From: Paenibacillus faecis
GTDB lineage: Bacteria; Bacillota; Bacilli; Paenibacillales; Paenibacillaceae
Direction: 5' to 3'
NCBI RefSeq assembly: GCF_008084145.1
Contig: NZ_VSDO01000006.1
Coordinates: 219,190 to 283,189, forward strand
Length of the DNA: 64,000 nt
The number at the start of each line of letters is the position of its first letter. Within the stretch, counting starts at the first letter, position 1. The position numbers and the translations under genes are program-made. This document shows, piece after piece, positions 11,193-55,647 of the stretch. Under the pieces are notes generated by a model. That model was not told the DNA's origin and searched no databases. It worked only from the letters and a program-made list of their open reading frames with translations.

Positions 11193-11198
11193 TAAGAT

Positions 11199-11310
11199 GT
11201 AAGATGCGATACTTATGACAATAAGACATAAAAAACTTGCGATCTGATTATAACATCGAGTTTTCTTATATGCAATCCACAAACCTGATAAACCATCAGG
11301 TTTTTTTATT
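11199..11310 (+). ncRNA. Candidate antisense small RNA over the rph leader (about 110 nt)
   Basis: Bounded by a TTGACA-N17-TACTAT promoter and a perfect 9-bp intrinsic terminator. It contains no ORF with a ribosome binding site (only a 10-codon ATG frame). Its first 40 nt would be complementary to the start of the rph 5' leader predicted from the opposing promoter at 11247-11275, so the two promoters face each other. This is a prediction from sequence signals only; no conservation could be tested. Confidence 0.45.
11247..11275 (-). promoter_or_regulatory. Predicted rph promoter
   Basis: On the minus strand TTGCAT (11275-11270), 17 bases, TATAAT (11252-11247). The predicted start near 11240 gives rph a leader of about 115 nt. 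Confidence 0.65.
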
Positions 11311-52786: not shown

Positions 52787-53722
52787 TTACTGACCCAGCT
52801 TCAACTCGTAGGTTAATTCAAGCAAAGGCTTCCCCCAGTCGTTGCTTGGATGCTCCGCCACTTTGACAAACCCCGCCTTCGTATACATGCCGATCGCCTG
52901 CTGTTGATCTTCCGTGGTCTCCAGGTACACGGTCCGATATTTCTTCGCCCGGCAATAGTCTACTGCTTCATTCAAAAGCCTGCTGCCGAGTCCGGTACCG
53001 CGGTATTGGGGGTGCACGAGAAACCACCTCAGTTGCGCTTTGCTCGGTGAATGCTCCACGATGGAAATCGCGCCGATCATGTTCCCCTCGGTTTCCGCAA
53101 ACCAGAACCGGTCCTTCCCCGGACGGTAGTGCTCAAAAAAATCGTAAAATGTTTTGCACACGTAACCTTCAAAACGGTGATTGTAGCCACGCTCCTGGTA
53201 AATCCAGCCGTGCAGATGGATCAGGTACCCCGCATCCCCGGGCCGCAGTTCATTGCGGATGCTGATCGGGTCCGAGGCAACTACCGGTTTGCCCGACAAA
53301 GCCGCTTCGATCGAGGTCATCCCGGCTACGAGCTGCTGCTGATCCTGCATCGGCAGGCCGCTGATGAGCTGATGAATCTGGCCGTCGGACAGCGCGTCCA
53401 AACGGACCAGCGTCTCTTCTCCCTTATCGGTCAGATATAAGTAGAACAGACGCCCATCCTCTTCGGACTGTTCCCTGCGGGTCAGGCCCTTTTTCTCAAA
53501 ACGTTTGATCATCCGACTCAGGTATCCCGGATCAATACTCAGTTCCTCAATCAGCCGTTTGGCAGTACATAACTCCGTATGTCCGATTTCATACAGCACG
53601 CGGGCTTCCGATAAGGAAAATTCGCTGTTCAGCATATGCTGGTCCAGCAAACCGAGGATATTCGTATAAAATCGGTTAAACCTGCGGACGGCATGGATGG
53701 TAGGTTTATAAACGGAATTCAT
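52787..53722 (-). CDS. MarR-type regulator fused to a GNAT acetyltransferase
   Basis: 311 residues from ATG 53722, behind TGGAGGAG. Residues 1-145 are a MarR winged-helix domain (FSLSEARVLYEIGHTELCTA, then YLSRMIKRFEKKGLTRREQS). Residues about 160-311 are GNAT (GDAGYLIHLHGWIYQERGY and LVHPQYRGTGLGSRLLNEAVD). This fusion architecture is widespread in Bacillota and Actinobacteria; it couples acetyltransferase activity to DNA binding, with unknown signals. Confidence 0.88.
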   Translation of the reverse strand: MNSVYKPTIHAVRRFNRFYTNILGLLDQHMLNSEFSLSEARVLYEIGHTELCTAKRLIEELSIDPGYLSRMIKRFEKKGLTRREQSEEDGRLFYLYLTDKGEETLVRLDALSDGQIHQLISGLPMQDQQQLVAGMTSIEAALSGKPVVASDPISIRNELRPGDAGYLIHLHGWIYQERGYNHRFEGYVCKTFYDFFEHYRPGKDRFWFAETEGNMIGAISIVEHSPSKAQLRWFLVHPQYRGTGLGSRLLNEAVDYCRAKKYRTVYLETTEDQQQAIGMYTKAGFVKVAEHPSNDWGKPLLELTYELKLGQ

Positions 53723-53803
53723 AAGTTTCTCCTCCAGAAAAACAACGATAATTTTTCTTAAATGATATTCCATTTACTTGACTTAGTCAACTAATTGAGG
53801 GCT

Positions 53804-53956
53804 TAATCAAAACCACACGTGTGAACGGGTAGTTTGCTCTGCGGCTGAAAGCCTTTATTACCGGCTCGCGTCTAAAGGCGCTAGCTTTCATTTCGTTCAA
53901 GCTACTAAGTTTGCCTACCCTGAAAGGGTGCGTTTATTACTAGTACCCCTTTAGAC
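53804..53956 (-). ncRNA. Structured right-end RNA candidate resembling an omega-RNA scaffold
   Basis: On the minus strand GTCTAAAGG (53956-53948) is the perfect complement of CCTTTAGAC (53878-53870). Between and after them lie hairpins ACCCTTTCAGGGT, GGCT-TTC-AGCC and a terminal AACTACCCG/CGTGTGGTT stem, ending at the element boundary TGATTA. The tnpA element's right end keeps the last two hairpins with different bases. TnpB/IscB guide RNAs have this arrangement (scaffold ending at the right end, guide from flanking DNA). No nuclease gene is present, so identity as omega-RNA is inferred. Confidence 0.45.
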
Positions 53957-53976
53957 AACCTTGATAATACAGAATT

Positions 53977-54170
53977 CCTGCATATCTGCATGCTTTTATC
54001 CTGTTTGGACTCAAAATTTCAAAATTCCTGCAAATCTGCAGGAATTTTTGACGAAACCGGCCCGTTTCTCAAAAATCGCTGGAAATTCCTGCAGATTTGC
54101 ATCTTTTTTCGCAATCCCCTCGGGGATCGGCCTAAATACCTGCAGATTTGCATCTTTTTGGAGTTGGAAG
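53977..54170. repeat. Cluster of four dispersed-repeat units
   Basis: Units at 53977-53997, 54027-54049 (inverted, near-perfect dyad), 54088-54108 and 54139-54159, spaced 50-61 bp, each built on CCTGCA(G/T)AT(T/C)TGCAT. The last two share a 21-bp identical core with each other and with 11447. In the minus reading frame the core would encode KKMQICR, but frames are short and lack RBS. Confidence 0.8.
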
Positions 54171-54327
54171 TTTGGAAGCACTCTAGGCGCCTCTTTGTAT
54201 GTGATAAATCACTTCGATTAGCCATTAACCCCCTTTAGCTTTCGTAATATGAACACTCCTATGATCACGACCCCATTAGCTGGTTTTTTGTTTCACACGC
54301 TTCGCGTGCTCAACTGGCTAAATCCAC

Positions 54328-55081
54328 TAATCATAACCACCCGTCCAACGGGTGGTTTGCTCTTGGGGTATAACCCCCTGTTGCCAAACTGCGCCTAAAG
54401 ACGCTAGCCTGACAATAAAATTGTTCAGGCTCAGTGTTTTTGTCACTTTCACTTACCAGTTAAACTGGTTTACTTCTTTTTGCTACTGTTTCTGCTGAAT
54501 GGATCTTCATACTCTTTTACGCTCAGTTTATCAATTGCTTGGTCATGTGCTTCCTGCTCACGTATATATTTAGCGACGGTGGCCTCATTTAAGCCCACAG
54601 TGCTGACGTAGTACCCCTCCGCCCAAAATTTCCGATTTCCATACTTATACTTCAAGCTGGCATGCTTCTCAAATATCATTAGCGAACTCTTTCCCTTTAG
54701 ATATCCCATAAACGATGATACAGAGATTTTTGGAGGTATCGCCACTAACATGTGTACATGATCTGGCATCATGTGACCTTCTATGATCTCCACTCCCTTG
54801 TATTTACATAACCGCTTGAATATTTCGATTAAGTCTTTCCTCACTTGATTATAGATCTCTTTCCGTCTATACTTCGGGGTGAACACGATGTGGTATTTGC
54901 ACATCCATTTCGTGTGGGCTAGACTATAGCTCTTGTTTGCCATCTAAGACCATTCCTTTCATTATTGAGCCTGAACATCTCAATTTTATGGGAATGGTCT
55001 TGTTGGTCAAACCCTAGATCCCTCCACCCGCATAGCGGGTGGTTTTTTGTTTCGCGCGTTTCACGCACTCAACTGGCTAAA
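54328..55081 (-). mobile_element. IS200/IS605-family element with tnpA (copy 1)
   Basis: About 754 bp, oriented leftward. Left end at 55081: TTTAGCCAGTTGAG, subterminal hairpin GTGCGT-GAA-ACGCGC, and CCACCCG-CTAT-GCGGGTGG. Then tnpA. Right end 54420-54328: hairpins AGCCTGA...TCAGGCT, GGGGT-TAT-ACCCC and AACCACCCG-TTGGA-CGGGTGGTT, ending TGATTA. No terminal inverted repeats and no target duplication, as expected for HUH single-strand transposition. The element abuts copy 2 with 5 bp between. Confidence 0.8.
54470..54943 (-). CDS. tnpA: IS200/IS605 family transposase TnpA
   Basis: 157 residues. HUH motif in MMPDHVHMLVAIPPK, and the catalytic Tyr in VAKYIREQEAHD; the N-terminal KWMCKYHIVFTPKYRRKEIY is canonical. 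Y1 transposase acting as a dimer on single-stranded DNA by recognising subterminal hairpins. Slightly longer than the typical 130-155 residues because of a Ser/Lys-rich tail. No tnpB follows. AAAGGAAT lies ten bases before ATG. Confidence 0.93.
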   Translation of the reverse strand: MANKSYSLAHTKWMCKYHIVFTPKYRRKEIYNQVRKDLIEIFKRLCKYKGVEIIEGHMMPDHVHMLVAIPPKISVSSFMGYLKGKSSLMIFEKHASLKYKYGNRKFWAEGYYVSTVGLNEATVAKYIREQEAHDQAIDKLSVKEYEDPFSRNSSKKK

Positions 55082-55088
55082 GCCGTAA

Positions 55089-55115
55089 TAAAAAAGCCGC
55101 GTCATTTCGCGGCTT
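55089..55115 (-). terminator. Terminator after the nucleotidyltransferase-like gene
   Basis: AAGCCGCG (55094-55101) pairs with CGCGGCTT (55108-55115); on the minus strand six T follow. It begins 2 bp after the stop codon. Confidence 0.8.
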
Positions 55116-55116
55116 C

Positions 55117-55647
55117 TTAAGCGTGTACATCCAGTGATCGAAGTTGCTGACTCAACTCACAGGTCAGGCCTGTGATCTTAAACAGATCACTTAGTAAATT
55201 CGAGTTCACTTTTTGTTTATTCGATTTTAAATAGTTTAGCAGCATATGCGCCTTTGCTTGCCGGCCCATAAGATCATAAGCTATATACCACACTTCGGGA
55301 CTCGATACCCGGATCCCGTCCCAATTTTCCATGGGACTCACGGGCAAATGGACGACACCGGCTTCCGAACGCAAAGCAAAGCAACCTATAAAGTCTATTT
55401 TTAGAGAACGTAAACTTATTCGATACTCGCTGGCAAACAGGCCGTCCCCGCTTGGCTGTTCAATCCATTCATACTCCGAAATAGCCTTAAGCAAAGCTTC
55501 TTTTGGACAATCGACCGTGATGTCCCAGTCATTCACCGAATCCGTCAAGCCGAGAAAATACAGTAATCCGCTGCCGCCTAGCGCATATTTGATCCGATGT
55601 TCCTCTAACTTCTCTACAATTGGGAAAAGCTCTTGGTGGTTTATCAT
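55117..55647 (-). CDS. Nucleotidyltransferase-fold protein
   Basis: 176 residues. LEEHRIKYALGGSGLLYFLG and VNDWDITVDCPKEAL carry the GG/S and D-x-D-type signature (GGSG...DWDITVD) of the MNT/AbiEii-like nucleotidyltransferase fold; a later Asp lies in LKIDFIGCF. The acidic residues appear present (D-I-T-V-D then KIDF). Substrate unknown; may be an antibiotic-type or tRNA-type transferase or an inactive homologue. GGGGGGAT precedes ATG 55647. Confidence 0.72.
   Translation of the reverse strand: MINHQELFPIVEKLEEHRIKYALGGSGLLYFLGLTDSVNDWDITVDCPKEALLKAISEYEWIEQPSGDGLFASEYRISLRSLKIDFIGCFALRSEAGVVHLPVSPMENWDGIRVSSPEVWYIAYDLMGRQAKAHMLLNYLKSNKQKVNSNLLSDLFKITGLTCELSQQLRSLDVHA

Follow-up and report, generated by a model that had tools for sequence, protein, structure and literature searches.

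Tandem IS200-group elements in Paenibacillus faecis and the position of IS200-group insertions behind predicted intrinsic terminators

IS200, the founder of its family, is described in a passage of PMC12594629 as essentially immobile yet conserved. According to passages of PMC5934647, members of the IS200/IS605 family integrate into tetra- or pentanucleotides; in IS608 the guide is AAAG and the target TTAC, and a second left-end hairpin has a minor role in TnpA binding. Group IIC introns insert behind stem-loops, including terminators, at TTGT/T (passage of PMC7923331). The open-licence literature, as distinct from the older subscription papers on IS200, yielded no report of terminator targeting by the IS200 group.

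Here we describe two elements of this kind, copy 2 and copy 1, on the minus strand of a 64-kb stretch of the Paenibacillus faecis genome (the window, i.e., the whole stretch of DNA analysed). We hold with considerable confidence the joint reading that copy 2 is an IS200-group insertion sequence, that copy 1 is a derivative of such an element mobilised in trans, that terminators are targeted by means of a guide and a hairpin, and that the right end is not a TnpB/IscB scaffold.

Two elements with common ends

The two elements lie head-to-tail and have common ends. The first-pass annotation had described tandem elements with shared ends and tnpA in only one of them, and this was borne out: copy 2 encodes a Y1 transposase (PF01797) and copy 1 has no intact gene. 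The extent given there, 53804–55081, was not exact, and the limits have moved slightly to 53805–54328 for copy 1 and 54329–55084 for copy 2.

Copy 2 (54329–55084, minus strand) is a complete IS200-group insertion sequence of 756 bp with tnpA as its sole gene, and its borders were set by means of copies elsewhere and their flanks. Two unlinked copies in the genome, L003 and L004, are 100% identical to it over 756 bp, and further copies are L002 and L005 (98–99%) and L006 (87%). The tnpA gene (54470–54943, minus strand) encodes a Y1 transposase of 157 amino acids which matches Pfam PF01797 (E value 6.2e-40) and the IS200/IS605 model NF033573 of NCBIfam (E value 1.9e-45). The ISHp608 transposase is among the matches of this product to solved relatives (5.6e-20), and its closest relatives are from Paenibacillus. 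Copy 2 has the traits of the IS200 group, both the IS200-type Y1 HUH transposase as only gene and subterminal hairpins at both ends. According to the list of open reading frames, neither copy contains a nuclease ORF and copy 2 has no tnpB ORF, in agreement with the earlier statement that no nuclease is linked to either element.

The main left-end hairpin of copy 2 (55024–55042, minus strand) is preceded in the sense direction by the A-rich stretch ACAAAAAA, a putative guide for a T-run target; AAA or a longer run stands immediately before the main left hairpin in all 13 left ends displayed. The element was apparently inserted behind a predicted intrinsic terminator (55085–55118, minus strand), which consists of a stem at 55094–55115 followed by TTTTTTATTAC and is located behind an ORF at 55117–55647. 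As the annotation had stated, two base pairs of the left-end hairpin (GCACGC/GCGTGT versus GTGCGT/ACGCGC) are changed on both sides, in a compensatory manner. At the right, again in line with the annotation, each element carries GAGCAAAC, then a hairpin and TGATTA, and the hairpin preceding them differs between the two: it is GGGG-TTATA-CCCC in copy 2, whereas copy 1 has GGC-TTTCA-GCC.

Copy 1 (53805–54328, minus strand) is non-autonomous and is located behind the right-end hairpin of copy 2, its left end being recognisable from about 54325. Between its end and the start (53773) of a MarR-GNAT fusion gene (52787–53773) there are 31 bp (53774–53804), and the promoter of that gene may be affected by copy 1. 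Elsewhere in the window, positions 11197–11308 match the Rfam sRNA ncr1015 (72.8 bits).

The consensus of 21 copies of the copy 1 family was compared with a tnpA-bearing insertion sequence of a congener (L288). The left 184 positions share 90.5% and the right 148 positions 93.9% identity with L288, and positions 185 to 432 of the consensus have no match to it. Copy 1 retains the ATG and ten further codons of tnpA (54193–54225, minus strand), encoding MANRSDLSHTK, and the intact tnpA of L288 starts with MANRSDMSHTK. The rest of the gene is replaced by an interior of about 235 bp (53959–54192, minus strand; approximate limits) that includes four copies of a 26-nt repeat (family D1). Because the 5' region and eleven tnpA codons were kept and the rest of tnpA was replaced, copy 1 is a MITE-type derivative of a related insertion sequence after loss of the tnpA body. 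It shows the trait of MITEs and PATEs (palindrome-associated transposable elements), being a non-coding derivative with both ends shared with an autonomous relative. The four repeats (AAATTCCTGCAGATTTGCATCTTTTT and variants) are partly inverted and occupy positions 53972–54159 of the window; the repeat blocks are among the most conserved parts of the 21 aligned copies (up to 0.99 identity).

With copy 1 as query, 40 long matches, itself included, were obtained in the 6.34-Mb genome (the best 40 of 220 candidates). A left-end pattern with up to three mismatches gave 48 matches in the genome and the reversed pattern, as a control, gave none; the right-end model described below gave at least 52 right ends (the best 150 of 1,755 candidates), six of them of copy 2 type and 46 others. 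Eleven of 39 other congeners, with up to 15 candidates scored in each, had matches to copy 1, over the ends only. The copy number and the shared ends suggest that the copy 1 family was mobilised in trans by a resident TnpA.

The structured right end

The right end corresponds to a 103-nt structure of four helices, matched in 65 of the 68 loci given (62 of 65 contig loci, the latter being 65 of 80). The covariance model (R1) is based on 26 right ends from this genome, for which the four helices were drawn by hand. The structured right end of copy 2 (54329–54435, minus strand), with its terminal hairpin at 54337–54355, scores 90.0 bits; that of copy 1 (53805–53907, minus strand) scores 113.4 bits with a model that includes its own sequence. 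Folding of single sequences gave a much higher stability than that of shuffles for the right end of copy 2 (z -4.97) and no difference from shuffles for that of copy 1 (z -0.05).

Among the 26 right ends of the genome itself covariation is slight: three pairs have double changes, a number reached by 219 of 500 shuffles, and the covariation score exceeds that of all 500 shuffles. In an alignment of relatives within the bacterial family (28 distinct rows), double changes occur on 18 of 24 pairs, and none of 500 shuffles reaches as high; 63 distinct rows including Enterococcus, Streptococcus, Peptoniphilus and Collinsella likewise give 18 of 24 pairs and 0 of 500 shuffles. Both alignments of relatives (A3 and A4) were made by fitting the rows to the model, and one weak, probably spurious row is present in each (L086:752 and L204:1768). 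The covariation across homologues that had been called for is present, and the claim of a conserved folded right end stands by way of these relatives rather than of the two copies. RNAalifold, applied unaided to A4, recovered helices 2–4 in part and did not predict helix 1. One pair of helix 2 (A4 columns 49 and 61) is U-G in 37, C-A in 18 and Watson-Crick in six of 61 rows; the exchange of U-G for C-A preserves a similar pair shape. A strand test on the right-end alignment gave 49 G-T and 58 A-C cells.

The right end of E. coli IS200C is a weak match to the model (24.6 bits, E value 4.6e-5 in a 2.2-kb scan). No Rfam 15 family reaches its gathering score over either element, the right-end structure included, and permissive Rfam scans gave only matches far below the gathering scores, with the exception of STnc490 in L078. 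This match lies in a distant relative, in its 5' region (L078:860–971), has 52.3 bits, just below the gathering score of 56, and suggests that the 5' RNA structure of IS200 is also old.

The annotation had further proposed a nuclease-less guide-RNA element, with an omega-RNA-like scaffold at the right end, flanking DNA as the guide, and a TnpB or IscB supplied in trans. The covarying structure does end exactly at the right end, as such a scaffold would, and two TnpB loci (L112 and L113) have very weak matches to the model (10.9 and 10.6 bits). However, TnpB is absent from the genome by both PF01385 (0) and PF07282 (0), models for which controls were positive in 7 of 14 and 6 of 14 genomes, respectively. 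The IscB model PF14239 also gave no match in the genome, in a search whose control was likewise silent everywhere, and the matches listed for the window by the Rfam scans do not include HEARO. Across 148 genomes of the family, with up to 27 candidates scored in each, the right end was found in 21, TnpB in 40 and both in five, approximately the rate expected if they were unlinked; TnpB (E value ≤0.001) occurs in five of 21 genomes with the right end and 35 of 127 without it. When the right-end model was searched against 30 TnpB loci of the same family, one per genome, nothing convincing was obtained (best 14.5 bits, E value 0.15), so that the expected relatives pairing TnpB with these right ends did not appear, and the right ends of the TnpB loci, where readable, look like a different scaffold. 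Moreover, the structure belongs to elements with tnpA only, and their left and right ends share motifs. Membership among TnpB/omega-RNA elements was rejected for want of a TnpB in element or genome and of a homologous scaffold in the 30 TnpB loci. It is unlikely that the folded ends of copies 1 and 2 act as guide RNAs of an absent nuclease, and we regard the borrowing of a nuclease in trans as very improbable. This cautions against reading every structured right end of an IS200/IS605 element as a guide RNA.

The motifs common to both ends favour recognition of the right-end structure by the transposase. Helix 4 is similar to the main left-end hairpin, and in copy 2 the terminal hairpin is nearly identical at the left and right ends. 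The TTATA loop found in helix 3 occurs in a small hairpin upstream of tnpA, no more than 110 nt away, in 35 of 79 loci, or in 29 of the 63 distinct ones, compared with 0.63 of 79 expected from shuffles and two of 75 flanks. The motif is found neither at the left end of copy 2 nor at those of the other Paenibacillus contig loci, and for helices 1 and 2 the left end of E. coli IS200C offers no clear counterpart. Motif-level counterparts of helices 3 and 4 at left ends are expected of DNA recognised by a transposase. The alternative that the annotation had set against its own proposal, a structure made up wholly of TnpA-recognition hairpins, is thus nearly realised through helix 4 and the TTATA loop, though not at the left end of copy 2, where TTATA is absent. 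Most likely, the helices that lie upstream in the right end serve the IS200 group as additional structure for transposase recognition or regulation rather than as a TnpB/IscB scaffold.

A regulatory role could also be exerted in the transcript, as a 3'-untranslated RNA element which controls tnpA through stability, termination or antisense, comparable to the 5' structure of IS200 and art200. In many lineages the structure is located downstream of tnpA in elements with this gene only, and in the 62 matching contig loci, out of 65, the distance from the end of the tnpA match to the start of the structure is 33–103 nt, as for such an element; a passage of PMC12594629 reports RNA-level control of tnpA for IS200. 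On the other hand, the structure is kept at the 46 right ends of other than copy 2 type, a family without intact tnpA in which the ends should count as DNA alone, although these copies are young. We consider regulation from a 3'-untranslated region unlikely, yet less so than a guide RNA; it would not conflict with the targeting of terminators.

Insertion behind terminators

Comparison of the flanking sequences shows that, from Paenibacillus to E. coli, IS200-group elements lie directly behind predicted intrinsic terminators and in the direction of the terminator. An automatic rule, requiring a stem of at least five net pairs, a loop of 3–9 and four T in the next seven nucleotides, detects the terminator at 125 of 136 distinct sites, three sites common to the first and further sets being counted once. 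In the first set, 74 of 81 distinct sites (91%) agree with the rule: 51 of 55 in the genome itself, 13 of 14 in relatives from the family and 10 of 12 in G120. Control windows from the same loci gave 991 of 4,860 (20.4%) when matched for T, a figure which partly reflects real terminators among them, and 202 of 5,000 (4.0%) when random. Not included in this count are left-end hits that begin past query position 12, sites whose last 40 nt contain N, and the site of copy 1 itself, which was dropped as a duplicate of L148 because one and the same right end forms the left flank of both.

In the further sets the rule detected 54 of 58 sites. These comprise E. coli IS200C (12/12, of which about 11 are independent, L271 and L273 sharing a mobile context), Enterococcus asini (6/6), Streptococcus (7/8), Paenibacillus OVF10 (3/3), other Paenibacillus (9/10), the second IS200 of this genome (4/5), Urinicoccus (3/3), Peptoniphilus (3/3), Senegalimassilia (2/2), Lutispora (2/2) and G025 (3/4). 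Repeated flanks were counted once, and L222, L173 and L186, for which no left end was found, were left out. Also left out were three copies with the border inside the element (L258, L268 and L270) and the pairs from Adlercreutzia and Collinsella (borders inside the element) and S. suis (too diverged). The second IS200-type family of the genome (L009–L013), with a transposase of 173 amino acids, stands behind terminators in five of five cases by eye, and its right end has the same layout.

Ten of the 11 undetected sites have, by eye, a stem and T-run that fall outside the rule owing to a long loop or a bulge. The exception is L066, the sole site with a hairpin but no T-run. The ORF adjoining its upstream flank presumably resembles the reverse transcriptase of a group II intron. 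An origin of the elements themselves from group II introns, which the type of target suggested, was rejected on account of the Y1 transposase and the ends.

At the E. coli chromosomal loci a gene in the same direction ends just upstream in seven of 12 (adhE, yeaH, carB, thrC, htpX, icd and tkt); the upstream gene is opposite in two, and none is annotated in three. Empty sites for the IS200C insertions at thrC and tkt read straight through the T-run, indicating clean insertion with an ambiguity of 1–2 nt, and no target duplication was seen at these two sites. The empty thrC site is present in 5,363 of 5,426 genomes at ≥80% cover, and the empty tkt site in 1,695 genomes.

It could be argued that the association is a mere preference for T-runs, or the residue after selection against insertions in genes. 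T-rich tails are present at nearly all sites and an A-rich guide at the left end, as a simple T-run preference would have it. Nevertheless, T-matched windows yield terminators far less often than the sites themselves (20% and 91%), and position and orientation are constant in many genomes. In contrast, TnpB elements from one genome of the same family lack the pattern: only three of 18 copies agree with the rule (two families, 1/10 and 2/8), though tested more leniently, at three offsets, than the IS200 sites, and with the border of L307 inside the element. These families have shared borders beginning with TTTAT or TTCAT. We judge a T-run preference or a residue of selection to be quite improbable, somewhat more so than regulation from the 3'-untranslated region; the requirement for a hairpin beyond the T-run is suggested by correlation.

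The right end itself, a GC hairpin with a T-rich tail, has a layout like that of an intrinsic terminator. Insertions at right ends were found for copy 1 behind copy 2, for L002/L005, for L288 of the congener and for L048 behind another IS200, and the right end therefore appears to be a target like a terminator. The tandem of copies 1 and 2 most likely arose in this way, the right end of the resident copy being itself an insertion target. The earlier remark that the tnpA element is followed, past its right end, by the left end of its neighbour is correct, but the meaning of a guide attached to it gives way to the simpler cause of insertion at a right end. In the case of L048, the copy-1-type element directly follows a member of the second IS200-type family (L013).

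Thus, we propose terminator targeting of the following kind. As in the family at large, the element ends would be DNA sites for single-strand transposition. By analogy with AAAG and TTAC of IS608, the A-rich guide beside the main left-end hairpin would pair with the terminator's T-run while the DNA is single-stranded. The terminator hairpin, with its GC stem and T-rich tail, would take the place of the element's own right-end hairpin, assuming that TnpA makes use of the hairpin, and a resident right end could serve as the next target, giving a tandem. More generally, IS200-group transposases might choose by shape and guide, reading terminators as a stand-in for the right end, and so form a terminator-specific, orientation-locked class with little gene damage and pile-up in tandem; we see the chances of this broader proposal as evenly balanced.

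Comparison with known systems

Copies 1 and 2 belong to an already known group. Like E. coli IS200C and ISSep3, copy 2 has a Y1 transposase alone, subterminal hairpins and the same right-end layout, and IS200C is also located behind terminators. Unlike them, copy 2 has extra outer left-end hairpins and a different main hairpin sequence. Terminator targeting is not stated for the IS200 group in the passages of the literature examined, nor did the open-licence literature yield a report of it, although this does not prove it to be new. If IS200 strictly preferred the space behind terminators, where insertion is harmless, both its spread and its quiet life would be easier to understand, and such targeting may account for spread with little harm.

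The TnpB/omega-RNA (OMEGA) elements of the IS605 and IS1341 groups belong to the same family and have a structured right end that reaches the border. In contrast to these, copies 1 and 2 have no tnpB and no scaffold match, and the TnpB elements use other targets, without a terminator pattern in the 18 copies tested. Copy 1 resembles MITEs and PATEs, by the usual PATE criteria, in being short, in having no intact gene and in sharing the ends of a resident IS type; it differs from them in that 11 codons of tnpA remain and the interior is rich in repeats.

Group IIC introns share the type of target with these IS200-group elements but employ a ribozyme and a reverse transcriptase, have no Y1 transposase and use an unrelated mechanism. 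The preference for terminators would thus be a parallel reached by different chemistry. It points to hairpins as a means of steering a single-strand transposase, a possibility of relevance to the engineering of targets for IS608-type TnpA.
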